DNA of 64,000 nucleotides from Bacteroidota bacterium (GTDB lineage: Bacteria > Bacteroidota > Bacteroidia > Bacteroidales > FEN-979). The stretch lies in NCBI GenBank assembly GCA_026391355.1, contig JAPLDH010000016.1, positions 58,918 through 122,917 on the forward strand, given 5' to 3'. Position 1 is the first letter of the stretch. The number at the start of each line of letters is the position of its first letter. The translations under genes and the position numbers were made by a program. Positions 43,299 through 63,805 of this stretch are shown one piece after another. The notes below the pieces were generated by a model. It made no database searches. It was not told the origin of the DNA and saw nothing but the letters and a program-made list of their open reading frames with translations.

Positions 43299-43348
43299 TA
43301 CACTTCCTGATCTAATTATTTATTCCTGAATCTTTAAAAAATGTATCA

Positions 43349-43585
43349 ATGGATATTATCGAAAATTATAAGGCAATTCACAGGCATGGAAATAAGATGA
43401 GAGAATGCATCGATCTGGCCATAAAAATTCAAAGCGCACCAAAAACGACGAGATCTTCGGAAGATTTGGCTGACGTCCTTGGATTAATACAGAGAATGAC
43501 CAATCACCTCGTCATCCAGATGGAAAAAGCAATTTCAACGGAATATTTATCAAACTGCTACGCTCCAATCCTTTATTTTTCCTGA
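43349..43585 (+). CDS. Hypothetical small protein
   Basis: ORF in conserved-looking mobile-element gene order. Confidence 0.45.
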   Translation: MDIIENYKAIHRHGNKMRECIDLAIKIQSAPKTTRSSEDLADVLGLIQRMTNHLVIQMEKAISTEYLSNCYAPILYFS

Positions 43586-43601
43586 CTCAACAAAACCTTC
43601 A

Positions 43602-44009: not shown

Positions 44010-44030
44010 CAAGCTCAATTCATTAACACT

Positions 44031-44058
44031 ATAAAAGCCCGCAGCAACGGGCTTTTAT
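44031..44058. terminator. Perfect 11-bp stem hairpin, likely bidirectional terminator
   Basis: ATAAAAGCCCG-CAGCAA-CGGGCTTTTAT. Confidence 0.88.
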
Positions 44059-44108
44059 CTTAATCTGTGAAATGATTTATTAAAATCTTAACTCTCAAGT
44101 ACAAAGAT

Positions 44109-45476: not shown

Positions 45477-45671
45477 TTCCTAATAAATCCTTTTACCCTG
45501 TTTACCAATCTTCTAAAATCCTTATGTATCTAAGTAAATCAAAGGTAAATCAATAGTAAAAGGAAGGTAAATTTACTGCATTTACCATTCCTTTGTTGTA
45601 TATTTTATTAATAATCAATGTCTTGAATGTAGAGTAAACAAGTAAATCGAAATTCCTAAAAATAGTGTTGT

Positions 45672-46310
45672 ATGAAAAAAGATTATGATTCCGAACCCAG
45701 AACTTATGAACTTATCCGAAGGTACTATCTTAATGATGACAAAGAAACAAAGCTAAGCCCAAAGGTTGACGCAATCCGAAAGCGATGGATGTCGGCCCAC
45801 ACGCTGGTCCTTGAATCAGATCTGAAAGAAGGCGGGGTTGTAAAGGCCTTAATGAAGATGTACAGCATTACGGAAAGGCAGGCTTACCGGGACCTTCTTA
45901 ACTCAACACGGTTATTTGGAAGCATCCAGAATGGTTCAAAAGCAGCTTGGAGGTATATGATTACGCAGTGGGCCATTGAGATGTACAGGAAGGCCAAGCT
46001 CAAACATGACCTGCATGCTATGGATGCAGCTCTTGGCCGTATCATATCGGCAAACAACCTCGACAAGGATGATTCCTGGATGCCTGATCCTGAAAAGATG
46101 TACCCACCCCAGCAGCTGCTGACAATCGATTATGATTTTTATAAGTCGCCCCATTTCAAGATGATCGATAAAACGGCCCAGGAGAAGATCACCAGGCTTT
46201 ATGAAAAGCTTCAGAGCATGGCTGAGGAGTTTATGGTGAGCGATTACCTTGATATCCTGCTTTCACGGAATAAGGTTCCGGAGGATGTTGATCTTGAAGA
46301 TGAGCGATGA
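45672..46310 (+). CDS. Hypothetical mobile-element protein
   Basis: 212-aa ORF; no family confidently recognised. Confidence 0.6.
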   Translation: MKKDYDSEPRTYELIRRYYLNDDKETKLSPKVDAIRKRWMSAHTLVLESDLKEGGVVKALMKMYSITERQAYRDLLNSTRLFGSIQNGSKAAWRYMITQWAIEMYRKAKLKHDLHAMDAALGRIISANNLDKDDSWMPDPEKMYPPQQLLTIDYDFYKSPHFKMIDKTAQEKITRLYEKLQSMAEEFMVSDYLDILLSRNKVPEDVDLEDER

Positions 46311-46438
46311 ACGGAATGACTTCTATGTGTCATGAGGATATTTCCGGTCCTATTTCACGAACCAGAAGTATATAGGGGATAAAAACTCCTCTTATGCCAG
46401 GGGAGCAAAATGATCAGGGGTTAATCCTATCCAATCGT

Positions 46439-46473
46439 AGGGGAGCACGGCGACGGTCTCCCCTTCTTTTTTT
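46439..46473 (+). terminator. Rho-independent terminator
   Basis: AGGGGAG ... CTCCCCT stem followed by TCTTTTTTT. Confidence 0.72.
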
Positions 46474-46679
46474 GAATTTCCGTCATATATACCATCAATT
46501 CATATATCCCTAAAAAAGGTGTAGGTGCAATTGCATTTTTCGATAGGGCGGGGCGTGCTCTCCTGAGAGGGAAGGTCAAAAATATCTTGATGCAAAAGTG
46601 TTTAATAGGTAATTTTCAACTATTTGCAAAACTATTTTTGTCAGTGGCTTTTTAATCATGGGATAGAGAAAATGACCGG

Positions 46680-46714
46680 CTTCTTTTCTTTGTGAGGATG
46701 GCAAAGAAAAGAAG
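46680..46714. repeat. Perfect 13-bp inverted repeat CTTCTTTTCTTTG-tgaggatgg-CAAAGAAAAGAAG
   Basis: Direct reading; perfect arms, 9-nt loop. Confidence 0.85.
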
Positions 46715-46979
46715 CAAAAGAAACCCGTTGGCCCACCGCACGGTTTAGCTCGAAATTTTGCTACAAAGTTACCTGCAAAGAATTCGCTTGAAAAGTACCG
46801 TTCGGCCAGGTACAGCTTAAAACTGTCAAGGGCGACCTCCGGATGGAACTGTCGCTCGTTGAGTTCTTTCATTTCCCGGTTCCCGGATGCATGACCCTAA
46901 CCCATTGACATTATTTATTCTTCTCGGTAGATGCCTTTGGCGTAATAAAATTTCATTACTAACTTAAAACAAATGCCTT

Positions 46980-47153
46980 ATGAAAACTTACGCCGCTACC
47001 ATGAAAGAACAGTCAATCGTTGAAATCTTCACCGAAATGATGGATCAGATTTACTACGAAGGCTACACCCAAGATCTTATTGAATCAGATCCTCTGAAGT
47101 TCGACTGGGAACTGAAAGAGTTCCAGGCGCAATTCTCAAAGAAAAGCAAATAA
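46980..47153 (+). CDS. Small hypothetical protein (57 aa)
   Basis: MKTYAATMKEQSIVEIFTEMMDQIYYEGYTQDLIESDPLKFDWELKEFQAQFSKKSK; immediately followed by a textbook terminator. Below the ORF-track size cutoff. Confidence 0.68.
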   Translation: MKTYAATMKEQSIVEIFTEMMDQIYYEGYTQDLIESDPLKFDWELKEFQAQFSKKSK

Positions 47154-47167
47154 CATCATCAAACAGG

Positions 47168-47197
47168 GCAGGAAGCGAAAGCTTCCTGCTTTTTTTT
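47168..47197 (+). terminator. Rho-independent terminator with GAAA tetraloop
   Basis: GCAGGAAGC-GAAA-GCTTCCTGC-TTTTTTTT. Confidence 0.93.
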
Positions 47198-47445
47198 ATG
47201 CTCGCTTAGATCAAAAATGAGTGCCTCCCACGTGCGGTGATCAAAATGAAATTCACAAAGTTATGCTCGTGAAAATATTTTGCACTAAACACGACCTCCT
47301 GCCGGCACTGTCGCCTTTCAGGTTTATTCAGATTCTTTTCAACAATCTGACCTGAATGTTTGCTTAAAATTTTCACTCCGCATTCTCCCTTCCGGCAAAT
47401 TTCATTTACTCACTGCGGCCCAATGCTGCTTAAAACTAATCTACT

Positions 47446-48186
47446 ATGAAAAAAATGATCATGAATCCGGAAATCGTCAAAGAAAACGGCCAAACTTACG
47501 AAAATAGAATCCCGATGCGTTACTGGGCAGAAGATGACCTGCCAAGTCAGAAGCTCCTGCTCAAGGGCAACGGCAGCTTGTCAGACGCTGAACTTCTGAG
47601 TATCATCATTGGCACCGGTGTTTCCGGGGAAAACTCCCTTGATATTGCCATGAAAACACTGTCAATCTGCGGAAATAACCTGTGCGAATTCTGGAAGTTC
47701 AGCGTTTCAGACCTTCAGAAAATTAAAGGCATCGGAGAAAAACGTGCCGTGAAGATAGCTGCCATGTTTGCGCTGGCCCGCCGAAGGAATGAATCAGAAG
47801 TGATCTTCAAAAACAAAATTTCAAAGAGCCAGGATGCCTTTGAAATCTTTCATTCCCTGATGGGCGACCTTCCTTATGAAGAATTCTGGCTTCTGCTGTT
47901 GAACAGGGCAAACAGGGTCATAAAAAAAGTGAAGATCTCTGAAGGCGGGATTTCCGGGACTGTCGTTGATCCGAAAAAAATCTTCCAGATTTGTCTTGAA
48001 CAGCATGCAACCTCCATACTGCTCGGGCACAACCACCCATCTGGCACGGTCACACCAAGCGAAGCAGACAATAAAATCACCAAGAAGATCAAAGATTGCG
48101 GCTTACTGCTCGATGTGGCTGTCCTGGATCACATCATTGTCGGTGATGACCGGTTTTATTCCTTTGCTGATGAAGGAACACTCTAA
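47446..48186 (+). CDS. radC: RadC family JAB-domain protein
   Basis: Helix-hairpin-helix DLQKIKGIGEKRAVKIAAMFAL; JAB motif LGHNHPSGTVTPSEADNKITKKIKDCGLLLDVAVLDHIIVG. Confidence 0.95.
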   Translation: MKKMIMNPEIVKENGQTYENRIPMRYWAEDDLPSQKLLLKGNGSLSDAELLSIIIGTGVSGENSLDIAMKTLSICGNNLCEFWKFSVSDLQKIKGIGEKRAVKIAAMFALARRRNESEVIFKNKISKSQDAFEIFHSLMGDLPYEEFWLLLLNRANRVIKKVKISEGGISGTVVDPKKIFQICLEQHATSILLGHNHPSGTVTPSEADNKITKKIKDCGLLLDVAVLDHIIVGDDRFYSFADEGTL

Positions 48187-48319
48187 AAAATCATGGCGAG
48201 CCAGATGCCACAAAAAATCCCAAAGGCATGGGTTTAATTATTCAATCAAATTTTTATAACCCTTCTTTGTAAGTAAAATTGCTTATTTTTGAAATATAAA
48301 TGGCACTAAAAACTTTCTT

Positions 48320-48577
48320 ATGACTAGAGTCTTAGCGGTTATTGAAAAAAAAGTCGATTCTAAAAAATTCATTGCTAACCTTTTTGATGATTATAATAAT
48401 CAGGAAAAATTAGCTGTTGATGGTCGTCACTATGAGATTGAAATACAAAATGGAATCCAATTTCATGAAGGCGAAGTCCTTTTAATCGATGTTATTGAAC
48501 ACAATGATTTTAAATTAAAAGGAAATGCAACAAGGTTTTTCAGAACAGGTAATCCTGAAACAATAGTTTGGCAATGA
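48320..48577 (+). CDS. Hypothetical small protein
   Basis: 85-aa ORF preceding the DUF262 gene. Confidence 0.5.
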   Translation: MTRVLAVIEKKVDSKKFIANLFDDYNNQEKLAVDGRHYEIEIQNGIQFHEGEVLLIDVIEHNDFKLKGNATRFFRTGNPETIVWQ

Positions 48578-48722
48578 TTACAATCTTGACAATAAACATG
48601 GGTTAAATCGAACAGAGTCGATAATTTTGGTAATCGAACACTAGTAATTCTTTTGAATTCCTGTAAAAACGAGAAGTATAGATCTTAAAGTTATAGTTAA
48701 AGAAAACTAAATAATTTGCGAT

Positions 48723-50570
48723 ATGGATATTTCACCGGACAAACAGAATATTGATGCATTATTCTCAACAACGACTTTCTATATTGATTTTTATCAGCGT
48801 CAGTATAAATGGAATGAAGACCCTGTTAAAAGATTATTAGATGATATCTTTTACAAATTCAATTCGGAGTACAAAGGGAAGACACACATTGATCCAGGTA
48901 TAGAGACAATAACTGCACATTATTCATGGTATTATTTGAATACATATGTGTCAAACATAATAGGTGGACGGACTTTTTTAGTTGATGGTCAGCAACGATT
49001 TACCACCATTACTTTGATCTTAATTAAGTTATATCATTTATGTGAACAACATAAATCAAGATTAAAGTCTTGGGTAGAAAGAAAAATTGTTGGTCATACA
49101 GGGTATGAAAGTGAATTTTGGATGAACCATGGCATTCACAACCAAACTCTTCAATCAATTTTTGATGATGATAAGAATGTTAAAAGACCATCAAAGGTGG
49201 GAGGTGTTTCTGAGGAAAACATGATAAATAATTATTATATCATCTCGAAATGGATAGATAATGAATTAAAAACAAAGCACAAACTTGAAACATACATTTT
49301 TTACTTTTTACATAGAATTGTACTGATAAATTTGAATGTGGAACAAACAGATGTTCCAATGGTTTTTGAAGTTATTAATGACAGAGGTGTTAGGCTTAAA
49401 CCGTATGAAATTTTAAAAGGTAAATTACTTGGACAGATTGACAAAATAGAACTTGATAGTGGAAAATATAATGAACTTTGGGATAATCAAGTTAATGCAA
49501 TTAATTCTTTTAATGACGATGAGATTGATGTGTTTTTCATATCTTTTCTTAGAGCAAAATTTGCAAATACAATTGGCGAGAGTAGAAAATATGATAAAGA
49601 TTACCATAGGACCATATTTGAAGATGAAACGAATAAAATTCTTAATCTGAAACATGATCCCCAAGGTGTAAAGAAATTCCTGAAAAATGATTTTAAGGTT
49701 TATACAGAACTATATGTAAAGCTTTTAAAATATTATTATACTCCAGAAGATAAAAAGTTTATACATGTTTTTTATAACCGATTGACAGAAATGGATACTC
49801 AGTTCTTGTTGATTCTATCATGTTGTAAGTTAAATGATCCCCAGCAATCGGAAAAGATTGAAGTAATATCATATGAAGTAGATCGACTTTTCAGTTTGCT
49901 CCAAATTCAGCGTAGTTATAATAGTAACGATTTTACAGAAAATATTTTCAAAATAAGCTCAGAGATTAGGGAAAAGGATTTAGCTAATATTCGACCAGTA
50001 TTCGATAAATATTTATTGCTCATGATTGGAAAATCCAGGGGATTATCGGTCTCGAATACTATGACATATACATATTTTAAAGATGTGGGTATTGATTTAA
50101 GTATACGTTTTAAAAGATACTTTTTCGCCAGGATAGAATCTTTTCTTGCGGACAATCTAAATCTAGATATGAAAAAATCAGTATATGATTTGGTTATGAA
50201 TACGGGCTCGAAGAACGGTTTTCATATTGAACATATTTTAGCAAATAATAAAGCTAATCTTAAAGCTTTCAAGAATGATGATGAAGAATTTGAACGGGAA
50301 AGGAATCGCCTTGGCGGATTACTCCTGTTAAAAGGACGAGATAATGAATCGAGTGGAAAAGAAACATATAAGAATAAATTAAAAACTTATGCCAATTCAC
50401 TTTATTGGAATGAAACTCTCCGGAAAGATTTTTATAAATCAAAGAAGGATCTTGATGATTTCTTAAAACGATCCAAGTTAAATATTAAAAGCCTTGATAC
50501 ATTTAGTGCCAAAGAACTGGAATATCGGCATAAACTCCTTTTTGAAATGATTAAATTGATATGGAAATAA
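48723..50570 (+). CDS. DUF262/DUF1524 (GmrSD-like) protein
   Basis: FYIDFYQRQYKWNEDPVKRLLDDI, FLVDGQQRFTTITLILIKLY, PMVFEVINDRGVRLKPYEILKGKLLG; C-terminal FHIEHILANNKANL...NRLGGLLLL. Confidence 0.92.
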   Translation: MDISPDKQNIDALFSTTTFYIDFYQRQYKWNEDPVKRLLDDIFYKFNSEYKGKTHIDPGIETITAHYSWYYLNTYVSNIIGGRTFLVDGQQRFTTITLILIKLYHLCEQHKSRLKSWVERKIVGHTGYESEFWMNHGIHNQTLQSIFDDDKNVKRPSKVGGVSEENMINNYYIISKWIDNELKTKHKLETYIFYFLHRIVLINLNVEQTDVPMVFEVINDRGVRLKPYEILKGKLLGQIDKIELDSGKYNELWDNQVNAINSFNDDEIDVFFISFLRAKFANTIGESRKYDKDYHRTIFEDETNKILNLKHDPQGVKKFLKNDFKVYTELYVKLLKYYYTPEDKKFIHVFYNRLTEMDTQFLLILSCCKLNDPQQSEKIEVISYEVDRLFSLLQIQRSYNSNDFTENIFKISSEIREKDLANIRPVFDKYLLLMIGKSRGLSVSNTMTYTYFKDVGIDLSIRFKRYFFARIESFLADNLNLDMKKSVYDLVMNTGSKNGFHIEHILANNKANLKAFKNDDEEFERERNRLGGLLLLKGRDNESSGKETYKNKLKTYANSLYWNETLRKDFYKSKKDLDDFLKRSKLNIKSLDTFSAKELEYRHKLLFEMIKLIWK

Positions 50571-50885: not shown

Positions 50886-51461
50886 GTGAGAAGGACAATA
50901 ATCGAAATTGCATCAATACAAACCGGAGTCTACGCCCAAACATCATCAAACGGGCATTTTTATTATATCCAGGCCAGACATTTTGATCATAACCGACAAT
51001 TCATTACAGCGGTAAAACCCGAGTTATCCTTTGATGAAAAATTAGAGAAGCATATTTTGCATAAAGGCGATGTGCTGGTTGCTGCAAAAGGATATGACCG
51101 TTTTGCTGTGGCTTACAGCAATATCCCTCACCCCGCTGTTGCTTCTTCTATGTTTATTGTACTGCGTATTATAGACAAGAACCAAATTTTACCTGAATAC
51201 CTGGCTTGGTTTATCAATCATCCTAAAACACAGAACATCTTATCCTTAAGCTCAAAAGGAACCGCTTTGCCTTCTGTCACCAAAGATGATGTTGGCAAGT
51301 TGGAAATTCTGATTCCTTCAATTGAACAACAAAAATCAGTATTGAAATTATATGAGCTCTTCCAGAAAGAAAGACAACTCAAATTGCAACTCGACGCTTT
51401 ATCAACATCAAAAATTCAACAGCAAATATTTACCGCAATATCTGAAAAAGATGAACAATAA
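50886..51461 (+). CDS. Half-size type I restriction S-like protein (single TRD)
   Basis: 191 aa, GTG start; KGDVLVAAKGYDR and GTALPSVTKDDVGKLEILIPSIEQQKSVLKLYELFQKERQL are S-subunit-like; overlaps hsdM by 11 bp. Confidence 0.75.
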   Translation: MRRTIIEIASIQTGVYAQTSSNGHFYYIQARHFDHNRQFITAVKPELSFDEKLEKHILHKGDVLVAAKGYDRFAVAYSNIPHPAVASSMFIVLRIIDKNQILPEYLAWFINHPKTQNILSLSSKGTALPSVTKDDVGKLEILIPSIEQQKSVLKLYELFQKERQLKLQLDALSTSKIQQQIFTAISEKDEQ

Positions 51462-52980
51462 AATTACTCAGAAAGAGATCAATCAAACTGTATGGAAAGC
51501 CTGCGATACTTTTCGCGGCGTTATTGACCCCAGTCAATACAAGGATTATATCCTGACAATGTTGTTTTTAAAGTATGTGAGTGATGTCAATAAAGACATC
51601 TACCAAAAACACTTGGCAAAATATAGTGGTGACACTGAACGTGCAGAACGTGCCATGAAGATGGAAAGGTTTATCGTACCCCATAATAGCACCTTTGATA
51701 ATCTTTTTGAGCACAGGAATAATACCAATATTGGAGAGATGATCGATATTGCGCTGAATGACCTGGAAGAAGCCAATCGGGAAAAATTGAGCAGCGAAGA
51801 CGGAAGCGGTATTTTCCGCAATATCAGTTTCAACAGCAGTAACCTTGGTGATGCGAAAGATAAAAACAACCGACTTAAAAACCTGCTGATTGATTTCAGC
51901 GAAATGGACCTTTCGCCTTCTCATCTTGAATACAACGATATTATTGGCGATTCCTATGAATTCTTGATAGCCAATTTTGCGAGTGATGCAGGGAAAAAAG
52001 CCGGTGAGTTTTACACACCAAGCGAAGTTTCGACTTTGCTCGCAAAGTTGACAAAATCAAAACCAGGTGCAAGGATTAGCGATCCAACCTGCGGATCTGC
52101 CTCCTTGCTTATTAAAGCTGGTAAAGAGGTCGGCTCGGATGACTTTTCATTGTACGGCCAGGAAGCAAATGGAAGTACCTGGGCATTGGCCGTCATGAAC
52201 ATGTTTTTGCATGGTTTTGACAATGCAACTATCCGTTGGGGCGACACCATTCGGAATCCCAAACTGAAAGAAGGAGACGCCTTGATGAAATTTGACACGG
52301 TGGTTGCGAATCCTCCATTTTCACTGGATAAATGGGGTGCTGAGGACACGGCAATTGCAGATAAATACAACCGGTTCTGGCGAGGGGTCCCACCGAAAAG
52401 CAAAGGAGATTGGGCATTTATAACCCATATGATTGAAACAACGTATGAAGGAACTGGCAAAGTAGGCGTTGTTGTACCTCATGGAGTGCTATTTCGTGGA
52501 GCCAGCGAAGGGAAAATCCGTCAGAAAACTATTGAGGAGAATATCCTTGAGGCCGTTATCGGATTACCGGCAAACCTTTTTTTCGGAACAGGTATTCCTG
52601 CAGCCATCATGGTTTTCAATAAAGGTAAAAATCAAAACCGGAATGTTTTATTCATTGATGCAAGCCAGTATTATGAGAGCGGAAAGAACCAGAACAAATT
52701 AAGGAAAGATGATATTGACCACATTGTTGAAACCTATCGGAAATTCAATGCCGGGGAATTACAGCTTGGTATTGTTGAGGATAAATTCAGCTATGTCGCC
52801 ACTTTTGAAGAAATTGCGGAAAATGATTTCAATCTGAACATTCCCCGTTATGTAGATACTTTTGAAGAAGAAGCTGAGGTAGATATAATGGCAGTTCAGA
52901 AAGAAATAGATAAACTGGAAGTGGAATTGAAGGAGGTTCAAAAAGAAATGACGATATATTTGAAAGAGCTAGGTCTTTAA
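51451..52980 (+). CDS. hsdM: Type I restriction-modification methyltransferase subunit
   Basis: AGEFYTPSEVSTLLAKL, DPTCGSASLLIKAG, FDTVVANPPFSLDKW (NPPF). Start placed at MNNKITQKEINQ. Confidence 0.96.
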   Translation: MNNKITQKEINQTVWKACDTFRGVIDPSQYKDYILTMLFLKYVSDVNKDIYQKHLAKYSGDTERAERAMKMERFIVPHNSTFDNLFEHRNNTNIGEMIDIALNDLEEANREKLSSEDGSGIFRNISFNSSNLGDAKDKNNRLKNLLIDFSEMDLSPSHLEYNDIIGDSYEFLIANFASDAGKKAGEFYTPSEVSTLLAKLTKSKPGARISDPTCGSASLLIKAGKEVGSDDFSLYGQEANGSTWALAVMNMFLHGFDNATIRWGDTIRNPKLKEGDALMKFDTVVANPPFSLDKWGAEDTAIADKYNRFWRGVPPKSKGDWAFITHMIETTYEGTGKVGVVVPHGVLFRGASEGKIRQKTIEENILEAVIGLPANLFFGTGIPAAIMVFNKGKNQNRNVLFIDASQYYESGKNQNKLRKDDIDHIVETYRKFNAGELQLGIVEDKFSYVATFEEIAENDFNLNIPRYVDTFEEEAEVDIMAVQKEIDKLEVELKEVQKEMTIYLKELGL

Positions 52981-53024
52981 CTCCTAATGGTTTAAATAAA
53001 TTTGATATTTCAAAAGGAAACCAC

Positions 53025-53621
53025 ATGAAAAAAGAAATACTGGATAAAATGATAATGATACACACGTTGCGTATTGACTTGATGGATGGAACTTTTTTGA
53101 GCTATAATATTGATGCCTATGAGAAAGAAGATCTTGAAAAGTATCTCGAATACAGAACGGATTTTTCACATGACTCGGAGACTACATTTATCCAGGTATT
53201 AACAATAGAAGAACGGGTGGTTTTTATCAGAATCAAGGCCATAAAACGTCTGATCTTTTGTTCTGATCCACCTGCCCGTATTAAAGAAGTCAAGTATCAT
53301 GATAACTTCCAGGTAATAACTAGTGATGAGAATGAAATAATTATTCCTGACATAATTATAAAGTTTAAAGATTCATCAGAGCCTTTGTGTTACAGCGATC
53401 TCGATCCAGAGACAGATTATATTCTTCTCGATGAAGAAGCGTTCAGCAATAAACCATTTAGAAAGACAGGGTTCATTTCAATAAATGACGAAGATGGAGA
53501 GCAAAATTATATCCCGGTTGTAAATATAACCTGTATGGAATTTAAACGAGAACTGATATTTTCTGATGAAATATGGAAAAGCATGGAGCATTCAAAAGAT
53601 ATTGATAAAAGGAAAAATTAA
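53025..53621 (+). CDS. Hypothetical protein
   Basis: 198-aa ORF within the R-M operon. Confidence 0.6.
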   Translation: MKKEILDKMIMIHTLRIDLMDGTFLSYNIDAYEKEDLEKYLEYRTDFSHDSETTFIQVLTIEERVVFIRIKAIKRLIFCSDPPARIKEVKYHDNFQVITSDENEIIIPDIIIKFKDSSEPLCYSDLDPETDYILLDEEAFSNKPFRKTGFISINDEDGEQNYIPVVNITCMEFKRELIFSDEIWKSMEHSKDIDKRKN

Positions 53622-53626
53622 CCTAA

Positions 53627-54385
53627 ATGAGAATACAATATTGTTCCGATTTGCACCTGGAATTTTTGGAAAACAAGGATTTTCTGATATCAGACCCGCT
53701 GAAACCAGGGGGAGATATCTTGCTCCTCGCCGGCGATATCGTTCCTTTTGCAGTTATGGGAAAACACGATGATTTCTTTGACTACATTTCTGCTAATTTC
53801 GAAAAAACCTTCTGGATTCCAGGCAATCACGAGTATTATCGTTCGGATATCAACTTAAGAAGTGGGACTTTTCTAGAGCCTATTCGAGACAATGTATTTC
53901 TGTTAAACAATTCATCGATAATCATTGATGGAATAAAATTCATTTTTTCCACAATGTGGTCTAAAATAAGCCCTGATAATTATTTTCATATCAGGAAAGG
54001 GATGTCAGATTTTCATGTGATTAAACGGAACCATGATGCTTTTATCCCTGCAGACTTCAACCAGCTTCATTCAGAATGCTTTAGTTTTCTTGAGAAAGAG
54101 ATTCGGGAACCATTTGAGGGTAAAAAGATGGTAGTAACCCATCATGTTCCTACGTTACTTAATTACCCGAAAAAATATAAGGGTGACATTTTAAATGAGG
54201 CATTTGCCTTGGAACTGTATGATTTTATTGAGCAAACGGAAGTGGATTATTGGCTTTTCGGGCACCATCATTATAATCCCCCATCTTTTACAATTGGAAA
54301 AACCCTTATGATCACAAACCAACTTGGGTATGTTAAGTACGATGAAAATGAAACTTTTAACAATGAAATGGAAATTATTTTATGA
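53627..54385 (+). CDS. Metallophosphoesterase
   Basis: MRIQYCSDLHLEF, LLAGDIVPF, WIPGNHEYYRSD, VVTHHVPTLL, WLFGHHHYNPPSF. Confidence 0.93.
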   Translation: MRIQYCSDLHLEFLENKDFLISDPLKPGGDILLLAGDIVPFAVMGKHDDFFDYISANFEKTFWIPGNHEYYRSDINLRSGTFLEPIRDNVFLLNNSSIIIDGIKFIFSTMWSKISPDNYFHIRKGMSDFHVIKRNHDAFIPADFNQLHSECFSFLEKEIREPFEGKKMVVTHHVPTLLNYPKKYKGDILNEAFALELYDFIEQTEVDYWLFGHHHYNPPSFTIGKTLMITNQLGYVKYDENETFNNEMEIIL

Positions 54386-55608
54386 AACCTGATCAACACG
54401 CTTCTACTAGGGTCAAGCTTTCAATTCAAAGCTTTATTCCTACAAACTGGGAATTAAAGCGGATTTCAGACGTAATTATTAATATTTCTAACGGATTAAC
54501 ATATGACCCGGAGATTAAAGAGGGTTTCCCGATCACAAGAATTGAAACCATTTCTGAAGGAGTGATTAATCTTGAGAAGGTTGGACATATTGTTTTCCGG
54601 GATTCCTTTGGTCGATATAAACTTAGAAGTGGCGATATATTATATAGTCATATTAATAGTGTTGCACATATTGGTAAAGTTGCTTTTGTAAATAAGGATA
54701 TGGAGGTTCTTCATGGTATGAACCTACTCCGGATAATCCCAAATTCAAATATTCTTCCCGTTTTCCTTTTTTACTTTTTTAATTCAGAAATTGCAAGAAA
54801 ACAGGCTTTTCTGACAGCAAAAAGAGCAGTTAATCAGGCCAGCTTAAGTACTTTAGAAATCAAAGCTTTTCACCTTCCTCTACCTCCACTTATTGAACAA
54901 ATCTCTATCGCCAATTGCCTTTCTACATGGGACAAGGCTATTTCAGCAACCTCTTCACTCATTTCCCAAAAAGAACTTCGTAAAATGTGGTTGCTGATGC
55001 TGTTGCTTACAGGGAAGAAAAGATTGCCCGGATTTAACGGGGAGTGGGAAAAATTTGGAGCCGGTGAAGTTTTTAAAAGTGTTTCTGTGAAAGGCACACT
55101 GGATGAAGAACTACTTTCTGCTACACAAGATAGAGGAATGATTCCAAGAAGTATGCTTTCAGGAAGAGTCACAATGCCTTCAAGCGGAACTGATTCTTTT
55201 AAACTTGTTGACAAGGGTGACTTTGTAGTCAGTTTACGTTCCTTTCAAGGAGGTTTGGAATACTCTTATTATAAAGGAATTGTCAGCCCAGCCTATACAG
55301 TTTTAAAACCCAGGAAGATAATCAATGAAGAATTTTTCAAGCAATATTTTAAGTCGTACGATTTTATTGGCCATCTATCAATTGCAGTAATCGGAATTCG
55401 GGATGGGAAACAAATTAGTTATGATGACTTCTGTGCGGTTAAAATCCCTTATCCCTCCATTGAAGAGCAAACAGCCATCGCCCGGGTTTTACAATCAGCC
55501 GACAAGGAAATTACCTTGCTCAAAGCTAACCTTGCTAAGCTGAAGGAGCAGAAGAAGGGGTTGATGCAGCAATTATTGACTGGAAAAAAGAGGTTTAATA
55601 TTGATTAG
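54382..55608 (+). CDS. hsdS: Type I restriction specificity subunit (two TRDs)
   Basis: LPLPPLIEQISIANCLSTWDKAI and YPSIEEQTAIARVLQSADKEITLLKANLAKLKEQKKGLMQQLLTGKKRF conserved repeats; overlaps the metallophosphoesterase gene by 4 bp. Confidence 0.95.
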   Translation: MKPDQHASTRVKLSIQSFIPTNWELKRISDVIINISNGLTYDPEIKEGFPITRIETISEGVINLEKVGHIVFRDSFGRYKLRSGDILYSHINSVAHIGKVAFVNKDMEVLHGMNLLRIIPNSNILPVFLFYFFNSEIARKQAFLTAKRAVNQASLSTLEIKAFHLPLPPLIEQISIANCLSTWDKAISATSSLISQKELRKMWLLMLLLTGKKRLPGFNGEWEKFGAGEVFKSVSVKGTLDEELLSATQDRGMIPRSMLSGRVTMPSSGTDSFKLVDKGDFVVSLRSFQGGLEYSYYKGIVSPAYTVLKPRKIINEEFFKQYFKSYDFIGHLSIAVIGIRDGKQISYDDFCAVKIPYPSIEEQTAIARVLQSADKEITLLKANLAKLKEQKKGLMQQLLTGKKRFNID

Positions 55609-55611
55609 AAA

Positions 55612-56052
55612 ATGAAAAAGACTGACAAAAAGAACTTACCAATAGCGATGATTCTTGAAATTGAATTAGGCGTTATTTTCAAGAATTATGAATACTCCCT
55701 TGATAGATGGGGCGACGGAGATAATTATTGTCAAATTGGCGATAATTCATTTATCTTTTTAGAATGCGAAAATACACAGAAGCATCCAAACACAAATGTG
55801 CTTAAATATTGGCCTTTTTTGGAAAAACATCCCTCAAATCGTGTGGTTCTCTTCCAATATTTTTTTCCTGAAAACAAAGCGCCAAAAAATCGCTTGGCGC
55901 TTTGTAACTTTCTAGCATTGAAAATCCAGGAATTGTTTCCAAAGAGATTCCAATATATCAAATTAATTGGCGGGAAAGAATCAATTACTAGAGAATTGAA
56001 AAACCAAAACAAAGGTGTGTTGCAGGTTTTACTTAATGGAAATAGTATTTGA
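55612..56052 (+). CDS. Hypothetical protein
   Basis: 146-aa ORF directly after hsdS. Confidence 0.6.
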   Translation: MKKTDKKNLPIAMILEIELGVIFKNYEYSLDRWGDGDNYCQIGDNSFIFLECENTQKHPNTNVLKYWPFLEKHPSNRVVLFQYFFPENKAPKNRLALCNFLALKIQELFPKRFQYIKLIGGKESITRELKNQNKGVLQVLLNGNSI

Positions 56053-56071
56053 TCAATAAATACAAAAAATT

Positions 56072-58063
56072 ATGAGTAGTAAAAGAGAATTGCATACGCT
56101 ATTTATTAAGCATGACACAGATTTTAGAACCTTGTCAAAAAAAGCTCTATCTGAGGTTATTCTTAAAATCATCCTTTTCCAGAAAAGTGGCACAAGAGTA
56201 GCACAAATCAAATCAGAACTTTCTTCTATTATAAAAGGTAATGTTTCTGATCAAATGATATCTGAATCATTGGATATATTAACGAGAGAGAAGAAGATAG
56301 TTCACCATAGAGGGAGGTATAATATACATTCACGGATATCGGCGAAACTTGATGAATCTGTAACTGCTAATAAGGAGTTACAAGATAGAGTCTTTAAAAA
56401 GTATTTATCATCTGCACAAACCCCATACGAAATTTTAAAATCTTGGTTCCAGGACACATTGATTCTATTTTTCGAGAATTATAGTATGGAGTGGTTTAAC
56501 CATTTGGCTCACCTTGGGAAATTTACCCCCAAGCAATTTGATAATAATGTACTATCTGCAATAAATGAGACTATTCTGAACTATGGAGATAATCTGCTTC
56601 CTGAGGATCATTCTTGGTTAAAGACACAGTTCACGAAATTTTATGAAAGCGAGGAATCAGATGAAAATATAATGTTTTGGAATTTTGGAATGTCTTTATT
56701 TTCTTCAAGATTAATAACTGCCCAAAATTATGCTGATAAGATTTCTATTGAAACATATAAGAATGGAAATTTCCTGTTAGATACTAATATTCTGATGATT
56801 TTAGATTTAGAAGGACATGAATTAAATCAATCTTTCGAATCTCTTGATAAAATATTAAATCAATTAAAAATTAAAACCAAATATCTTCATATTACAAAAG
56901 AAGAATACAGAAGAGCCATTGAGGGTAGAAAAGTAGATACGATGCATGTCTTTGAATCGTATGATATAGAAGTATTAAAAGCCACAAAATGCCCCTTTGT
57001 TCAAACCGCAATAAAAAGAGGTTGTAATGATTCTTCTGATGTAGAAAGAATGTTCGATACTCTATTTGATATCCCGAAATCTATATCTAATCTTACAAAT
57101 ATTGATATAATTGATTACCCAGAGCTTGAGACCGAGGTCCAAACCGGTTGTGCAAATGAGGATTTAAAGAAAAAAATTAACGAAATTCACTACAGACGAT
57201 TAAAAAGAGATAAAAGAGAAAACCCTAAAATTCACGATGCTGGATTAATTCACGGTGTGAATTTTCTTAGAAGGGAAGATCGGACATGGATTCTAACTGC
57301 TGATGGAACATTAAAGGTATATGCGATTGAAAATGTTATTAGAGATGAAACAGAAATCGCAATTGGTCTTGATGCATTGATAGCAATGTTCGCTGTCAAC
57401 AGTGGCGGAGTGGATGTCGATTCATCAGATTTTGCACCATTATTTAAAAATCTAATTAAGAATTCTCTAATCCCCGAAGATCATATTTTTGATGTTCGTG
57501 ATCTTGCATTCATCCTTAGTACCAACTTGCGAATAAATGATTTAGATAGCGAAAAAGTTGTGGAAATAGCAAACACGGTCAGAAGAATGCGAATAGCAGG
57601 GGAAAAAGATGAAGAAATCTCCCTATTCCTTCGACGCGAAATCGAAGGCCAAAAATTAACCATCGTCAAAGATCTTAATGCAGCAAAAGCTAATGAAGGA
57701 GTTGCAAAAGCAAGGAAAGAACAAGCCGAAAAAGAAAGAGATTTTGCTTATAATGAGATAAGGGAAAAAAGAAAAGCAGAACTGAGAGATAAATATGATA
57801 GACAATTAAGAGTTAATCGTACCCTTCTAATCATTATCCCAATACTCATTTCATTATTTTTCTTTTTTGCCTTAAGATATGGCCTAAAAACAGATCTCTT
57901 TGTTCAATTTTTAGTAGCATGTGGAATAGAGTTCTTTTTTGGCCTTATACCATATTTCCCTTTAAATCGAAGATTTATTAAAAAACATAGTGAATATGTT
58001 CATGACATTGATAAAATTGTTGAATATGAGATCATTGAAATGAAAAAGAATGCTAAAATTTAA
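56072..58063 (+). CDS. Predicted wHTH - PIN-like nuclease - coiled-coil - two-transmembrane protein
   Basis: PIN-like NFLLDTNILMILDL, HITKEEYRRAIEG, IHDAGLIHGVNFL, WILTADGTLKVYA; basic coiled coil KARKEQAEKERDFAYNEIREKRKAEL; TM LLIIIPILISLFFFFALRYG and FLVACGIEFFFGLIPYFPL. Confidence 0.68.
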   Translation: MSSKRELHTLFIKHDTDFRTLSKKALSEVILKIILFQKSGTRVAQIKSELSSIIKGNVSDQMISESLDILTREKKIVHHRGRYNIHSRISAKLDESVTANKELQDRVFKKYLSSAQTPYEILKSWFQDTLILFFENYSMEWFNHLAHLGKFTPKQFDNNVLSAINETILNYGDNLLPEDHSWLKTQFTKFYESEESDENIMFWNFGMSLFSSRLITAQNYADKISIETYKNGNFLLDTNILMILDLEGHELNQSFESLDKILNQLKIKTKYLHITKEEYRRAIEGRKVDTMHVFESYDIEVLKATKCPFVQTAIKRGCNDSSDVERMFDTLFDIPKSISNLTNIDIIDYPELETEVQTGCANEDLKKKINEIHYRRLKRDKRENPKIHDAGLIHGVNFLRREDRTWILTADGTLKVYAIENVIRDETEIAIGLDALIAMFAVNSGGVDVDSSDFAPLFKNLIKNSLIPEDHIFDVRDLAFILSTNLRINDLDSEKVVEIANTVRRMRIAGEKDEEISLFLRREIEGQKLTIVKDLNAAKANEGVAKARKEQAEKERDFAYNEIREKRKAELRDKYDRQLRVNRTLLIIIPILISLFFFFALRYGLKTDLFVQFLVACGIEFFFGLIPYFPLNRRFIKKHSEYVHDIDKIVEYEIIEMKKNAKI

Positions 58064-58066
58064 TCA

Positions 58067-59728
58067 ATGAAAAGTATAAACGAAGAGTCAACCTTAAGAC
58101 AATTACTCTCATTGCCTAATGAAAATGAAGTAGTTGAGTTCAAAGAGGCAAAAAACACATATGATTTTACAAAATTGGGGAAGTATTTTTCCGCTTTAAG
58201 TAATGAAGCAAATCTACAAGGCAAACCTTTTGCATGGCTAGTATTTGGCGTCGAGGATAAACATCATCATATCGTTGGTAGTCATTTTCGTCCCATTCGA
58301 AAAGACTTGGATAGCTTAAAAAGTGAAATAGGGAATAAAACCACAAATCGAATAACTTTTATTGAGATTTACGAAGTACATCTACCCGAAGGAAGGGTGG
58401 TAATGTTTCAGATTCCTGCAGCTCCAAAGGGTTTTCCGATAGCCTTTGAGGGACACTATTATGGTCGTGATGGTGAGGATTTGGTTCCACTAAATCTGGA
58501 AGAAATAGAAAGAATCAGGGCACAAGCTACTACTGAGGATTGGAGTGCTGCAATCATTCCTGATGCCATCATTGATGATCTGGATAAGGATGCTATATTG
58601 GTTGCCCGTAATAATTTCAAAAACAAATTCTCAGAAAAAGCATCAGAGGTTGATAATTGGGATGATACAACATTTCTTAATAAGTCAAAAATTCTCAATA
58701 AAGGAAGAATTACAAGGGCTGCCATTATATTATTAGGCAAAGAAGAATCAGAGCATTTAATCAGTCCGGCAGAGGCAAAAATCAGATGGTTACTCAAAGA
58801 TGCCAGCGGCAATGATAAAGATTATATGATTGTTGGATGTCCTTTTTTATTGGCTGTTGACAAAATCTATAACCGGATTCGCAATCTGAAATATCGTTAC
58901 CTTAAAGATGGCACCCTTTTCCCGGATGAAGTGAACCAATATGAACCTTTTATCATTCGTGAAGCACTGAATAATTGTATTGCGCATCAGGACTACACAA
59001 AAAATGGGAGAATAAATGTTATTGAATTGGATGATCAGTTGATATTCACAAATCTTGGGAGTTTCATCCCTGGAAGTGTCGAAAGAGTCGTTAAAGAAAA
59101 TGCTCCCGAAGAACATTACCGGAATCGGTTCCTAGCTACAGCAATGTTTAACCTTAAGATGGTTGACACTGCCGGCGGAGGAATCCGGAAAATGTTCAAC
59201 TTCCAGCGTGAACGATTCTTTCCCATGCCTGATTATAACCTGTCTGATGGGAAAGTCAAAGTTACTATCACTGGCAAGGTTTTAGATGTAGAGTACGCAA
59301 GGGTACTCGCTAAAAACAGAGATTTGACACTTGAAGAAATCATGATGCTGGATAAAGTCCAGAAGAAACAACGACTGAATAATTTCGAGGAAAAACACCT
59401 TAAAGCAAAACGATTAATAGAAGGAAGAAAACCCAATTATTTTATTTCATTAAAAGTTGCTCAACAAACTGGACAAAAAGCAACCTACACGAAAAATAAA
59501 GCATTTGATAAAGCATACTACCTGGATCTTATAATAAAATCATTAACAGAACATGGTCATATAAATAGGTCTGATGTCGATGAATTATTATGGAATAAAC
59601 TACCAGATTGGATGAGTGAACAGCAAAAGAAACATAAAGTTAACAATTTACTTTCTGAATTGAGACATAAAGGGGCTATTAAAAACATTGGAACCGATAA
59701 CAAGCCAAATTGGATACTAATTAAGTAG
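58067..59728 (+). CDS. AlbA_2 (Schlafen-like) domain ATP-binding protein
   Basis: ENEVVEFKEAKNTYDFTKLGKYFSALSNEANLQGKPFAWLVFGVED; HYYGRDGEDLVPLNLEEIERIR; IREALNNCIAHQDYTKNGRI; FLATAMFNLKMVDTAGGGIRKMF. Confidence 0.92.
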   Translation: MKSINEESTLRQLLSLPNENEVVEFKEAKNTYDFTKLGKYFSALSNEANLQGKPFAWLVFGVEDKHHHIVGSHFRPIRKDLDSLKSEIGNKTTNRITFIEIYEVHLPEGRVVMFQIPAAPKGFPIAFEGHYYGRDGEDLVPLNLEEIERIRAQATTEDWSAAIIPDAIIDDLDKDAILVARNNFKNKFSEKASEVDNWDDTTFLNKSKILNKGRITRAAIILLGKEESEHLISPAEAKIRWLLKDASGNDKDYMIVGCPFLLAVDKIYNRIRNLKYRYLKDGTLFPDEVNQYEPFIIREALNNCIAHQDYTKNGRINVIELDDQLIFTNLGSFIPGSVERVVKENAPEEHYRNRFLATAMFNLKMVDTAGGGIRKMFNFQRERFFPMPDYNLSDGKVKVTITGKVLDVEYARVLAKNRDLTLEEIMMLDKVQKKQRLNNFEEKHLKAKRLIEGRKPNYFISLKVAQQTGQKATYTKNKAFDKAYYLDLIIKSLTEHGHINRSDVDELLWNKLPDWMSEQQKKHKVNNLLSELRHKGAIKNIGTDNKPNWILIK

Positions 59729-59734
59729 TCAATA

Positions 59735-59878
59735 ATTAGACAAACTATTAGACAAACTATTAGATAAACTATTAGATATAATGTTAAATTGGCTATTAAA
59801 CAGGCTGTTAAACAGGACATTAGGATAACGATTAGATTAGCTTTTCGATTAACTATTAGATAAACTATTAGATAAATT
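59735..59878 (+). repeat. Minisatellite: 12 tandem 12-bp units, consensus ATTAGAtAAACT
   Basis: Twelve consecutive indel-free 12-mers: attagacaaact x2, attagataaact, attagatataat, gttaaattggct, attaaacaggct, gttaaacaggac, attaggataacg, attagattagct, tttcgattaact, attagataaact, attagataaatt. Confidence 0.9.
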
Positions 59879-59891
59879 TATTTCTTCATAC

Positions 59892-62800
59892 ATGCAGACC
59901 CCCTCCTTCAAAGAAGACCACATCAGCCAGATACCGGCATTACAGATGCTGATAAAATTGGGTTATACGTACCTCAGTCCTGAAGAAGCATTGCAATTCC
60001 GAGGGAATAAAACCACCAACGTAATTCTAGAAGATATTCTCCGAAAGCAACTGAAAGAGATCAATGTAAGGAAAGTCAGCTCTACCCGGGAGATGATTTT
60101 CTCTGATGCCAATATTGAAAATGGTATCCAGGCTTTGAAAGACATGCCCATGAATGAAGGGTATATTTCTGCCTGCGAACAAGCCTACAACCTCTTAACA
60201 CTTGGTAAAGCCTTTGAGCAAAGTATTGATGGAAATAAAAAAAGTTTCACCCTTTATTATATTGATTGGTCTCCGGAAACTTTCTTTACAAACAACGTTT
60301 TTCATGTCACGGAAGAATACAGCGTAATGCGCAGTACCAGTAAAGAACATTATAGGCCGGACATTGTTCTTTTTGTCAATGGAATTCCTTTGTGCATAAT
60401 TGAATGCAAGCGACCGGATATGAAAGACCCTATTGCGCAAGCGATTTCTCAACATCTCCGGAATCAGCATGAAGATGGAATCCGCAGTCTGTACGTGTAT
60501 GCCCAATGCCTTTTAAGTATCGGCACAAACGAAGCCAGTTTTGCCACAAACGGTACGCCCGAAAAGTTCTGGTCTATTTGGCATGAGAAATTCAATAATA
60601 AAAGTGAAGAAGAACAATACCGGAATCATTTGTTGGAAATTAAAAATCAGCCTTTATCGCTTGACCAGAAAAATCAACTCTTTGCCGATCGGTTTAAATA
60701 TGTCCGGAGCTACTTTGATGCATTGGAATCGGAGAAAATCCTGCCGGTTACCCAAGATGAATACCTTTTCGGCTTGTGCAGTCCGAAACGAATATTAGAC
60801 ATGGCTTTTAATTATATTCTATTCGATAACGGGGAAAAGAAGATTGCCCGTTACCAGCAGTTTTTTGTCATTAAAAAGGCCATGGATCGTATCCGCACGA
60901 TAGAAGGTGGGAAGAGAAAAGGAGGGGTAATCTGGCATACTCAGGGTAGTGGAAAGTCGCTTACCATGGTGATGCTGGCCCAGGCCATAGCGCTTGAGAA
61001 AAGCATTGTAAACCCCAAGATTATTTTGGTCACAGACCGTGTGGATCTTGATGAACAGATTACCGGAACGTTTCGCAAATGCGGAATGTTCGTTGACAAT
61101 GCAACTACCGGACAGCGCCTCGTTGATCTTCTGGAGAGCAAGAGTGATGCTGTTGTTACTACTGTTATCAACAAATTTGAGGCAGCAGTCAGGAAGATCA
61201 TCAAACCCATTGAAAACCCGAACATTTTTGTCCTGGTCGATGAAGGGCACCGTACTCAGTATGGCATGTTTAATATCAATATGCAAAAAACCCTGCCCAA
61301 TGCATGTTTTATCGCCATGACCGGAACACCGTTGTTTAAGAAAGATAAAAATACTGCCATCAAGTTTGGTGGTATCATTGATGAATATACCGTGGATCGG
61401 GCTGTAAAAGACAAAGCCGTTGTTCCATTGTTGTATGAAGGTCGTCATGCAAAGCAGGTTGTTCATGAAAAAGCAGTTGATGATTATTTCAACCTGATTT
61501 CTGAACCGTTGACAGAATATCAGAAAGCCGACCTGAAAAAAAAGATGAGTCGCGCTGATCACTTGAATGCAGCAGAACAAAAAATCTATGCAATAGCATG
61601 GGACCTGAGTCTTCATTTCAGGAATAATTTTCAGCATCGTACCCCCTTTAAAGGGCAACTTGTGTGCGACAGAAAGGAAAACGCTATCAAGTACAAATCC
61701 TGTCTAGATGATATTGGGATTGTCACATCCGAAGTTTTAATCTCCCCTCCAGACGATCGTGAAGGCGAGGATAGTTCCTTTGGAGAGACATCGGACAGAG
61801 TTAAGCGTTTCTGGAAAAAGATGATGGATGAGCATGGCAGTCCGAAACGTTATGAAAAGAACATCATAAGTCGTTTCAAGTACCAGCCAACCCCTGAAAT
61901 TATTATTGTGGTTGATAAGCTTCTGACCGGGTTCGATGAGCCAAAGAACATTGTTCTTTATCTGACACGGAAACTTCAAGGTCATTCACTCTTACAAGCA
62001 ATAGCCAGAGTAAACCGTGTATATACTGATAAAGATTATGGCTACATCATTGATTATTATGGAGTGATTGAACAGTTGGATGATGCACTGCAATTGTACT
62101 CTTCCTTTGAAGATTTTGACCTGGATGATCTTGGCCAGACACTTACCAACATCATTGATGAAGTAAAGAAACTTCCGCAAATACATTCTGAACTCTGGGA
62201 TGTTTTTAAAACAATCACCAACAAGCGCGATGCAGAAGGTTATCAGCAATTTCTGAAAGATGAATCGATCCGGGTTGTGTTTTATGATAAGCTGCTGGCA
62301 TTTGCAAGGATATTAAAACTGGCATTCGCCTCTATTCAATTCCACAAGGAAACGGATGAAAAGACCATTGACCGGTACAAAGAAGACCTTGCTTTCTTCC
62401 TGAAATTAAGAAGCGCTGTATTGCAACGCTATTCTGATGATGTGGATTACAGGCAATATGAAGGTCAGATACAGAAACTTATTGATACTCATGTGCAAAC
62501 CGACGATGTGAAACCAATTACGGAACTGGTGAACATTTTCGAGAAAGAACGGTTTGAAGAGGAAGTTGAGAAAACTGTAGGTATTGCTGCCAAGGCCGAT
62601 AAAATTGCATCCAGGACAGCAAAACATATTTCAGAGAAAATGGAGGAAGATCCCGCCTTCTATAAAAAGTTCTCGGAAATGTTAAAAGAAACCATTGAAC
62701 TTCATGAGTTGGGCCGCATCAACGACGCCCAGAAATTAAAGAAGGTTACTGAAATCATGAATGCAGTACTTTCACATACCGATGCAGATATTCCGGAATC

Positions 62801-63113
62801 ATTAGAGGGCAGGGATGTGGCAAAAGCATTCTTCGGGTTGGCTAAAGAGGGTCTTACGGATAAGTTTCAGGATGAAACAATATTGAAAAGCATTTCCGCC
62901 GATATTGCACTTGCAGCAGATGAAATCATTATGAAACATATTGTTGTTGACTGGCAGATAAAGATAGACGTTCCAAAGCGTATGTTTCATTTAATTGGTG
63001 ATTATCTGATCGATGAAGTCAGGGATAAATACCATCTTCAAATGACATTTGAGGAAATTGACAGTATTGCTGAACAGATTGTTGATGTTGCAAAGATCAG
63101 ATACAAGAAATGA
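59892..63113 (+). CDS. hsdR: Type I restriction endonuclease subunit R
   Basis: IVLFVNGIPLCIIECKRPD nuclease motif; VIWHTQGSGKSLTMVMLA Walker A; ILVTDRVDLDEQI; VLVDEGHRTQYG; FIAMTGTPLF; QAIARVNRVY. Confidence 0.97.
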   Translation: MQTPSFKEDHISQIPALQMLIKLGYTYLSPEEALQFRGNKTTNVILEDILRKQLKEINVRKVSSTREMIFSDANIENGIQALKDMPMNEGYISACEQAYNLLTLGKAFEQSIDGNKKSFTLYYIDWSPETFFTNNVFHVTEEYSVMRSTSKEHYRPDIVLFVNGIPLCIIECKRPDMKDPIAQAISQHLRNQHEDGIRSLYVYAQCLLSIGTNEASFATNGTPEKFWSIWHEKFNNKSEEEQYRNHLLEIKNQPLSLDQKNQLFADRFKYVRSYFDALESEKILPVTQDEYLFGLCSPKRILDMAFNYILFDNGEKKIARYQQFFVIKKAMDRIRTIEGGKRKGGVIWHTQGSGKSLTMVMLAQAIALEKSIVNPKIILVTDRVDLDEQITGTFRKCGMFVDNATTGQRLVDLLESKSDAVVTTVINKFEAAVRKIIKPIENPNIFVLVDEGHRTQYGMFNINMQKTLPNACFIAMTGTPLFKKDKNTAIKFGGIIDEYTVDRAVKDKAVVPLLYEGRHAKQVVHEKAVDDYFNLISEPLTEYQKADLKKKMSRADHLNAAEQKIYAIAWDLSLHFRNNFQHRTPFKGQLVCDRKENAIKYKSCLDDIGIVTSEVLISPPDDREGEDSSFGETSDRVKRFWKKMMDEHGSPKRYEKNIISRFKYQPTPEIIIVVDKLLTGFDEPKNIVLYLTRKLQGHSLLQAIARVNRVYTDKDYGYIIDYYGVIEQLDDALQLYSSFEDFDLDDLGQTLTNIIDEVKKLPQIHSELWDVFKTITNKRDAEGYQQFLKDESIRVVFYDKLLAFARILKLAFASIQFHKETDEKTIDRYKEDLAFFLKLRSAVLQRYSDDVDYRQYEGQIQKLIDTHVQTDDVKPITELVNIFEKERFEEEVEKTVGIAAKADKIASRTAKHISEKMEEDPAFYKKFSEMLKETIELHELGRINDAQKLKKVTEIMNAVLSHTDADIPESLEGRDVAKAFFGLAKEGLTDKFQDETILKSISADIALAADEIIMKHIVVDWQIKIDVPKRMFHLIGDYLIDEVRDKYHLQMTFEEIDSIAEQIVDVAKIRYKK

Positions 63114-63805
63114 TGGATTCCATTGAATTCGGTTCAAAGACCATAGCATTCCAGTTGATTTTTTCAGACCGGAAATCGCTTGGTATAACCATTACTCCCA
63201 ATATGGAAGTCATGGTCAAGGCACCACGGAATGTTTCTTTCGAAAGAATAAAAGAGAAAGTAAAAAAGAAAGCCCCCTGGATCATTAAGCAGCAGGGGTA
63301 TTTTTTGTCGTTTCTTCCGAGAACACCTGAGAAAAAGTATGTGAGTGGTGAAACCCATCTTTATATGGGTAGGCAATACCGTTTAAAAATAACAGAAGCT
63401 AAGTCAAACATTGTTCATTTCCGGGGAAGGTTTTTTGAAGTCCAGATGAAAAAGAAATCGAATGCAAAAACCCTTCTTAGACAATGGTACCGGGAAAGAG
63501 CGAAGCTTAAGTTTGCCGAAATTGCGGAACCATGGATCCAACGGTTTGAAAAGTACAATGTCAAACCAGAATCCATATATTTACAGGAAATGCCCACTCG
63601 CTGGGGAAGCTGCACACCCAAGGGGAAGATCATTCTGAATCCGGAACTTATTAAAGCGCCTAAACCCTGCATTGAATATGTGATTATCCATGAATTATGT
63701 CATCTTGTCCACCCGAATCATACCAATTCCTTCATACAATTGCAGGAAAAGATGATGCCGGATTGGGAAAAATGGAAGGCGAAACTTGAAACACTATTGG
63801 CTTAA
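63110..63805 (+). CDS. YgjP/SprT-like M48-type metallopeptidase
   Basis: LQEMPTRWGSCTPKGKIILNPELI...CIEYVIIHELCHLVHPNHTNSF (HExxH); overlaps the hsdR stop by 4 bp. Confidence 0.93.
   Translation: MMDSIEFGSKTIAFQLIFSDRKSLGITITPNMEVMVKAPRNVSFERIKEKVKKKAPWIIKQQGYFLSFLPRTPEKKYVSGETHLYMGRQYRLKITEAKSNIVHFRGRFFEVQMKKKSNAKTLLRQWYRERAKLKFAEIAEPWIQRFEKYNVKPESIYLQEMPTRWGSCTPKGKIILNPELIKAPKPCIEYVIIHELCHLVHPNHTNSFIQLQEKMMPDWEKWKAKLETLLA

Follow-up and report, generated by a model that had tools for sequence, protein, structure and literature searches.

Within a type I restriction-modification (R-M) operon of the 64,000-nucleotide stretch of DNA analysed here (the window), a gene located between hsdS and hsdR probably encodes an RNA- or DNA-cutting enzyme with a predicted membrane anchor. 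Our best explanation, to which we assign a probability of about 0.6, is that the product is a membrane-tethered PIN-domain nuclease, and that its gene is a self-contained, exchangeable piece of defence cargo that would serve as an abortive-infection effector. The computed observations that carry this reading are a PIN core with an acidic tetrad, a winged helix, a coiled coil and a hydrophobic hairpin in the protein, the lack of a conserved partner, the position of the gene in a variable slot of the operon, and its independent exchange.

Architecture of the protein and its PIN-like core

The 663-aa protein is made up, in order, of a winged helix, a helical middle portion, the PIN core, a long coiled helix and, at the C-terminus, two hydrophobic helices; these features and those of the operon are located in Table 1. 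An earlier note on this DNA had listed the motifs LLDTN, KEEYRRA, IHDAG and LTADG, and all 4 were found in frame in the single open reading frame. It had also described a winged-helix-like N-terminus, for which the structure model now places a winged helix at aa 21-85, in agreement with Foldseek matches of the N-terminal part to winged-helix chains (probability 0.9-1.0). The coiled coil and paired hydrophobic helices of the same description were recovered as well, the former as a continuous helix in the model (aa 513-604) and the latter as hydrophobic segments (aa ~583-627) kept in 13 of 13 homologues. Basic residues flank these segments, with RVNR ahead of them and NRR and KK behind, and suggest that the pair forms a hairpin with both of its ends in the cytoplasm; from hydropathy alone, we infer that the protein is inserted in the membrane.

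Table 1. Location of the PIN gene, its protein features and the genes of the R-M operon in the window
Feature	Position	Strand	Remarks
wHTH-helical-PIN-coiled coil-2TM protein, 663 aa	56072..58063	+	ATG start; GC 32.1%
N-terminal winged helix, aa 21-85	56132..56326	+	structure model and Foldseek
PIN-like nuclease core, aa about 224-440	56741..57391	+	conservation, AlphaFold, Foldseek
long coiled-coil-like helix, aa 513-604, continuous	57608..57883	+	structure model
two hydrophobic helices, aa ~583-601 and ~609-627	57818..57952	+	presumed membrane hairpin; hydropathy
D237 (in LLDTN)	56780-56782	+	invariant, 13 homologues
E278 (in KEEYRRA, E277/E278)	56903-56905	+	invariant, 13 homologues
D389 (in IHDAG, with H388)	57236-57238	+	invariant, 13 homologues
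D411 (in LTADG)	57302-57304	+	D in 10, E in 3 of 13 homologues
short single-TRD HsdS-like ORF	50886..51461	+	operon start; conserved in related operons
hsdM	51352..52980	+	start uncertain; homologues begin near 51457
198-aa protein of no known family (53025-53621) and calcineurin-like phosphoesterase	53025..54385	+	slot A cargo
hsdS	54382..55608	+	two specificity domains
146-aa ORF, no assigned family	55612..56052	+	slot B cargo; no relative at other PIN loci
AlbA_2/HATPase_c_4 protein	58067..59728	+	slot B cargo
hsdR	59892..63113	+	
YgjP-like metallopeptidase	63110..63805	+	constant last operon gene

Profile searches with the window protein found no covering model in Pfam, NCBIfam or PADLOC, the sole Pfam trace being a sub-threshold match of aa 23-101 to DUF5457 (21.7 bits, cut-off 25.2). 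Domain profile searches detected neither ABC ATPase nor anticodon nuclease domains in this protein and its homologues, and PADLOC run over 13 members of the family returned one weak match, to DrmC, in 1 of the 13 (E 0.0084).

We aligned 13 sequences, all of them full-length or nearly so, and observed that D237, T238, N239, E278, H388 and D389 were invariant at 25-49% identity to the query; it is E278, and not E277, that is the conserved glutamate of KEEYRRA. Because the loci had been retrieved through an LDTNILM/FW-type pattern, the invariance of D237 through M242 is partly ascertained, while E278, D389 and D411 are free of this bias. LDTNILM is also kept in the homologues from 2 genomes (G268 and G519) that were found without the pattern.

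AlphaFold models built on alignments of homologues, 13 in the case of the core, reached a pLDDT of 80 and a pTM of 0.65 for the whole protein, and a pTM of 0.80 for aa 224-470 alone. The core was modelled by itself because the fold search with the full-length model was swamped by helices, its PIN matches being present but weak. In the core model, a strand at 233-236 ends in D237, a second strand (268-272) is followed by the helix of E278, D389 lies in a helix, and a strand at 405-409 precedes D411. The best PDB matches of this model in Foldseek were to VapC PAE2754 (probability 0.97-1.00, TMt 0.61-0.64; for the top match 1.00 and 0.63, respectively, with E 0.033), followed by VapC PAE0151, AF1683, Exo1/FEN1/XPG, Rrp44, EST1A and minimal RNase P, and most of the leading matches were PIN or FEN-type nucleases. 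Foldseek E-values were above 0.01 throughout, those for the core being at least 0.03, and none reached 0.001; in the absence of a single significant match, the case for a PIN fold rests on the consistent set of matches together with the tetrad. PDB sequence searches with the protein and 2 profiles gave coiled-coil or chance matches only, and no PIN model matched the 13 members in Pfam or the window protein in NCBIfam, which is a statement about detection by profiles and not about the biochemical definition of the fold. The PIN fold with an acidic tetrad, as put forward in the earlier note, thus agrees with the structural search, in which a VapC came first, and with the conservation of the tetrad. 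In the aggregate, the fold, the tetrad, the N-terminal winged helix and the hydrophobic hairpin at the C-terminus all find support in conservation and structure prediction.

The core topology and tetrad order are common to the window protein and the VapC-type PIN ribonucleases (such as PAE2754, AF1683 and Rickettsia VapC2): the first D stands after strand 1, the E in the helix that follows strand 2, another D in a later helix and the last D after the next strand. However, VapC proteins are of about 130-155 aa and are usually paired with an antitoxin, whereas the window protein has 663 aa, extra domains and no conserved partner.

The operon and its two cargo slots

All genes of the operon, from 50886 to 63805, lie on the + strand. 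The position of the PIN gene between hsdS and hsdR, claimed in the earlier note, stands with respect to the type I R-M operon but not with respect to direct neighbours, since hsdS and hsdR are each one gene further out. It is the 146-aa ORF upstream and the AlbA_2/HATPase_c_4 gene downstream that adjoin the PIN gene, and to these co-oriented neighbours the reported gaps of 19 and 3 bp correctly apply. No terminator-like site was found on the + strand from hsdS to the PIN gene; there was one weak match inside the AlbA gene, and terminator matches were in total no more numerous than in shuffled sequences. The 198-aa and 146-aa cargo ORFs are both of low GC (33%) and have no Pfam or PADLOC match.

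Related operons were located through HsdR (match at E <= 1e-100) in a draw of 297 genomes from the phylum. Such an HsdR was present in 27 of them, and the PIN gene only in the window's own genome, being absent from the other 26. We read 10 of the related operons (L052-L061), all of which kept the frame of short HsdS, hsdM, hsdS, hsdR and YgjP, with variable slots between hsdM and hsdS and between hsdS and hsdR. The slot cargo included CD-NTases accompanied by SLATT_4 (L053), SAVED (L054, L057) or patatin (L058), as well as Fic (L053, L054), RhuM (L060, L061), an AAA_13 protein (L061), a helicase (L059) and, in the hsdS-hsdR slot, AlbA (L055, L056). A constant frame with 2 cargo slots, filled by defence modules that vary from operon to operon and may be entire CBASS-like sets, was observed over the window, L013-L016 and L052-L061. 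Wherever the start of a related operon is visible (L013, L015, L016 and L052-L061), hsdM is preceded by a short HsdS-like protein of about 185-264 aa with a single TRD, which may be an alternative specificity half or a regulator.

The PIN gene and hsdR give discordant identities. Between the window and L013/L014, HsdR is 71-72% identical and PIN only 49%, whereas between L015 and L013/L014, PIN is 73-74% identical and HsdR only 54%. These relationships point to exchange of the PIN gene between operons, and the GC contents agree, being 32% for the PIN gene and 33% for the 146-aa ORF versus 40-41% for hsdM, hsdR and YgjP. Taken with the 26 genomes that have a related HsdR and no PIN gene, the sequence comparisons indicate that the PIN gene belongs to the exchangeable cargo; in other operons its slot is occupied by CBASS, Fic, RhuM or PrrC-like genes.

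The AlbA_2/HATPase_c_4 gene appears to be another exchangeable cargo gene, as copies 68-75% identical at the protein level occupy the hsdS-hsdR slot of L055 and L056 in operons without a PIN gene. For that reason, and because AlbA is not next door to PIN in L013-L016, we rejected it as an obligatory partner; the 146-aa ORF was rejected as an obligatory antitoxin, having no relatives at other PIN loci.

Relatives of the protein and their neighbourhoods

Homologues came from whole-genome searches (G268, G519), from IMG/VR (L011) and, through a pattern on the LDTN region, from 84,980 species genomes (11 loci). The first pattern scan of genome contigs, which was built on the N-terminal half, gave zero matches; there was no match in the plasmid collection and none at the nucleotide level in E. 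coli genomes. Full-length matches occurred in 3 genomes only (the window's, G268 and G519) over about 1,150 genome searches, in which some genomes were drawn repeatedly. The family is thus rare; its members were found almost exclusively in Bacteroidota. Matches of L003, L004 and L009 to residues 548-646 were coiled-coil/TM matches and were left out of the homologue count.

The window protein forms one clade with those of L013, L014, L015 and L016 (tree support 100/99), and in all 5 of these the gene is placed between hsdS and hsdR; the complete operon is visible in 4, L014 ending upstream at a contig end. Relative to hsdS, the PIN gene overlaps by ATGA in L013, and begins 3 bp after it in L014 and 18 bp after it in L016, while in L015 the two are separated by a CD-NTase/SLATT_4 pair.

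Outside this clade, no type I enzyme was found beside the PIN relatives. At the edge of a phage-like contig (L011) the gene adjoins a type ISP R-M enzyme, in L018 a type ISP C-terminal protein, and in L021 an N6-MTase that carries an HSDR_N_2 domain, together with a NERD-kinase protein. Next to this last cluster (L021:2-5427, - strand), divergent genes were seen by eye to resemble those of MotA/OmpA-type, Zorya-like membrane proteins, beside a 1075-aa protein without a Pfam match. Other neighbours are an AAA_21/RloB pair (RloAB; L020), a KAP NTPase (L019), RhuM and a CAP12-type TIR protein nearby (L012), a histidine kinase with a receiver-like protein, read by eye (L002), and apparent conjugation genes (L022); the gene of L017 stands alone. 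No recognized antiviral system adjoins the PIN gene in L002, L017, L022 or L023, so that other functions are possible. Across the homologous loci, no neighbouring gene is conserved and no cognate antitoxin was found.

The association with R-M loci expected from the earlier note was observed both in the window's clade and in the 3 other lineages that adjoin type ISP R-M or N6-MTase genes. In 98 genomes of the phylum, N6_Mtase matches averaged 3.2 per genome, so that about 2% of a genome is no more than 10 kb away from such a match. Against this background, 7 of 12 fetched loci have an R-M methyltransferase or a type ISP enzyme nearby (binomial P about 9e-10), as have 4 of about 10 lineages, counted by eye on the tree (P about 3e-5); the latter value weakens to about 0.005 if defence-rich genomes, with 18 matches as in the window genome, are taken as background.

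Proposed role, known systems and alternatives

Abortive infection is a reasonable reading of the gene's role, in which RNA would be the target, the protein auto-inhibited and phage the trigger. The protein would stay inactive on the cytoplasmic face of the inner membrane, where its winged-helix/helical N-terminal half or its membrane-anchored coiled coil might sense a phage-induced change, candidate signals being nucleic acid, an anti-restriction protein or a disturbance of the membrane. The PIN active sites would then meet and cleave RNA, tRNA or mRNA being the likeliest substrates by analogy with VapC, and the infected cell would stop growing before phage release. The R-M operon would not be a biochemical partner on which the protein depends; it would offer co-expression and a mobile platform that both share.

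A parallel is DS-3 (DefensePredictor), likewise a single-protein PIN system, which has been proposed to be auto-inhibited until infection and requires its catalytic residues for defence; it differs in that its PIN domain is split between the N- and C-terminus, and it was validated in E. coli (PMC13092281). With respect to position, DarTG2 of an E. coli type I R-M operon (RRDM island) is comparable: this toxin cargo lies exactly between hsdS and hsdR, and hsdR is followed by a metallopeptidase gene, at a site that the authors termed a potential recombination hotspot for defence systems; DarTG2, however, is a two-gene ADP-ribosyltransferase toxin-antitoxin controlled by RptR (PMC12255303). CBASS/SLATT 2TM effectors (L015, L053) resemble the window protein in occupying a slot of related operons and in their two-helix membrane module, but are expected to need a CD-NTase signal and have no nuclease domain. 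PrrC and RloC, which consist of an ABC-type ATPase plus a HEPN-type nuclease, are RNase effectors whose genes lie in a type I hsd locus or are linked to one, as the PIN protein would be, yet are unrelated to it in sequence and lack a membrane anchor. In the part of the literature covered, we found no description of a wHTH-PIN-2TM protein in R-M operons; PIN effectors and toxin cargo at this position are known kinds of gene, and what appears new is the family with its architecture.

The earlier note had proposed a specific arm of the window's R-M enzyme, triggered when restriction is blocked. A trigger of this sort has a precedent in PrrC, whose gene lies in a type IC hsd locus and which reacts when EcoPrrI is inhibited (PMC12707154), and it might apply to the type I clade. 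A PrrC-like guardian that monitors the HsdRMS complex physically, and is released once restriction is inhibited by a phage protein, would also fit the hsdS-hsdR position of all 5 clade members. The proposal is nevertheless not supported, since 26 genomes have a related HsdR without the PIN gene, the PIN and HsdR relationships conflict, and homologues stand alone or beside non-R-M genes, those outside the clade having no type I enzyme; the PIN family as a whole is independent of the type I enzyme, and we regard such a guardian as unlikely. Quite unlikely, too, is a new class of restriction guardian, in which a membrane-anchored PIN nuclease would sense inhibition of or damage to type I R-M, or phage entry at the membrane, and kill the cell, its close relatives being connected to type ISP and other R-M systems.

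A regulator of the island or an RNA-processing enzyme, whose winged helix would bind DNA or RNA while the PIN domain trims operon transcripts, would account for the N-terminal winged helix, for standalone members such as L017 and for the histidine kinase and receiver protein of L002. Yet the gene is missing from nearly all sister operons, which therefore do not need it for their regulation, its membrane anchor is conserved, and slot B otherwise holds effectors, all of which makes this alternative very doubtful. A PIN-like scaffold without catalytic function is a highly improbable reading of the acidic core: none of the members is matched by a Pfam PIN model and 3 members have E in place of D411, but all 4 positions are acidic in 13 of 13 sequences as divergent as 25-49% identity to the query. 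Most improbable is a type II toxin-antitoxin toxin with the 146-aa ORF as its antitoxin. The PIN fold is nearest to VapC and that small ORF is co-oriented, 19 bp upstream, but it has no relative at other loci, the PIN gene directly follows hsdS in L013, L014 and L016, and a 663-aa protein with a hairpin anchor is unlike VapC.

The gene defines an unmodelled wHTH-PIN-coiled coil-2TM family with an intact predicted active site, missed by the defence and domain libraries searched, and set in the comparable context of Bacteroidota type I R-M operons whose 2 slots swap CBASS, Fic, RhuM, PrrC-like, AlbA and PIN nuclease genes. If the preferred reading, exchangeable abortive-infection cargo, is confirmed, slot B of such operons is a place to seek new defence genes, and the idea of a one-gene suicide switch in the form of a membrane-bound PIN protein becomes directly testable.

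Upstream of the R-M operon, the window contains a defence island with mobile-element genes (33252-50570), including a tyrosine integrase, an AbiEi/AbiEii pair, a TOTE primase-helicase, an HNH protein, a DUF5906 protein, RadC and the type IV enzyme GmrSD, the last with a GC content of 30%. The window genome (G000) is itself unusually rich in R-M genes, with 18 N6_Mtase matches in 4.8 Mb, as compared with the mean for its 98 relatives in the phylum given above.
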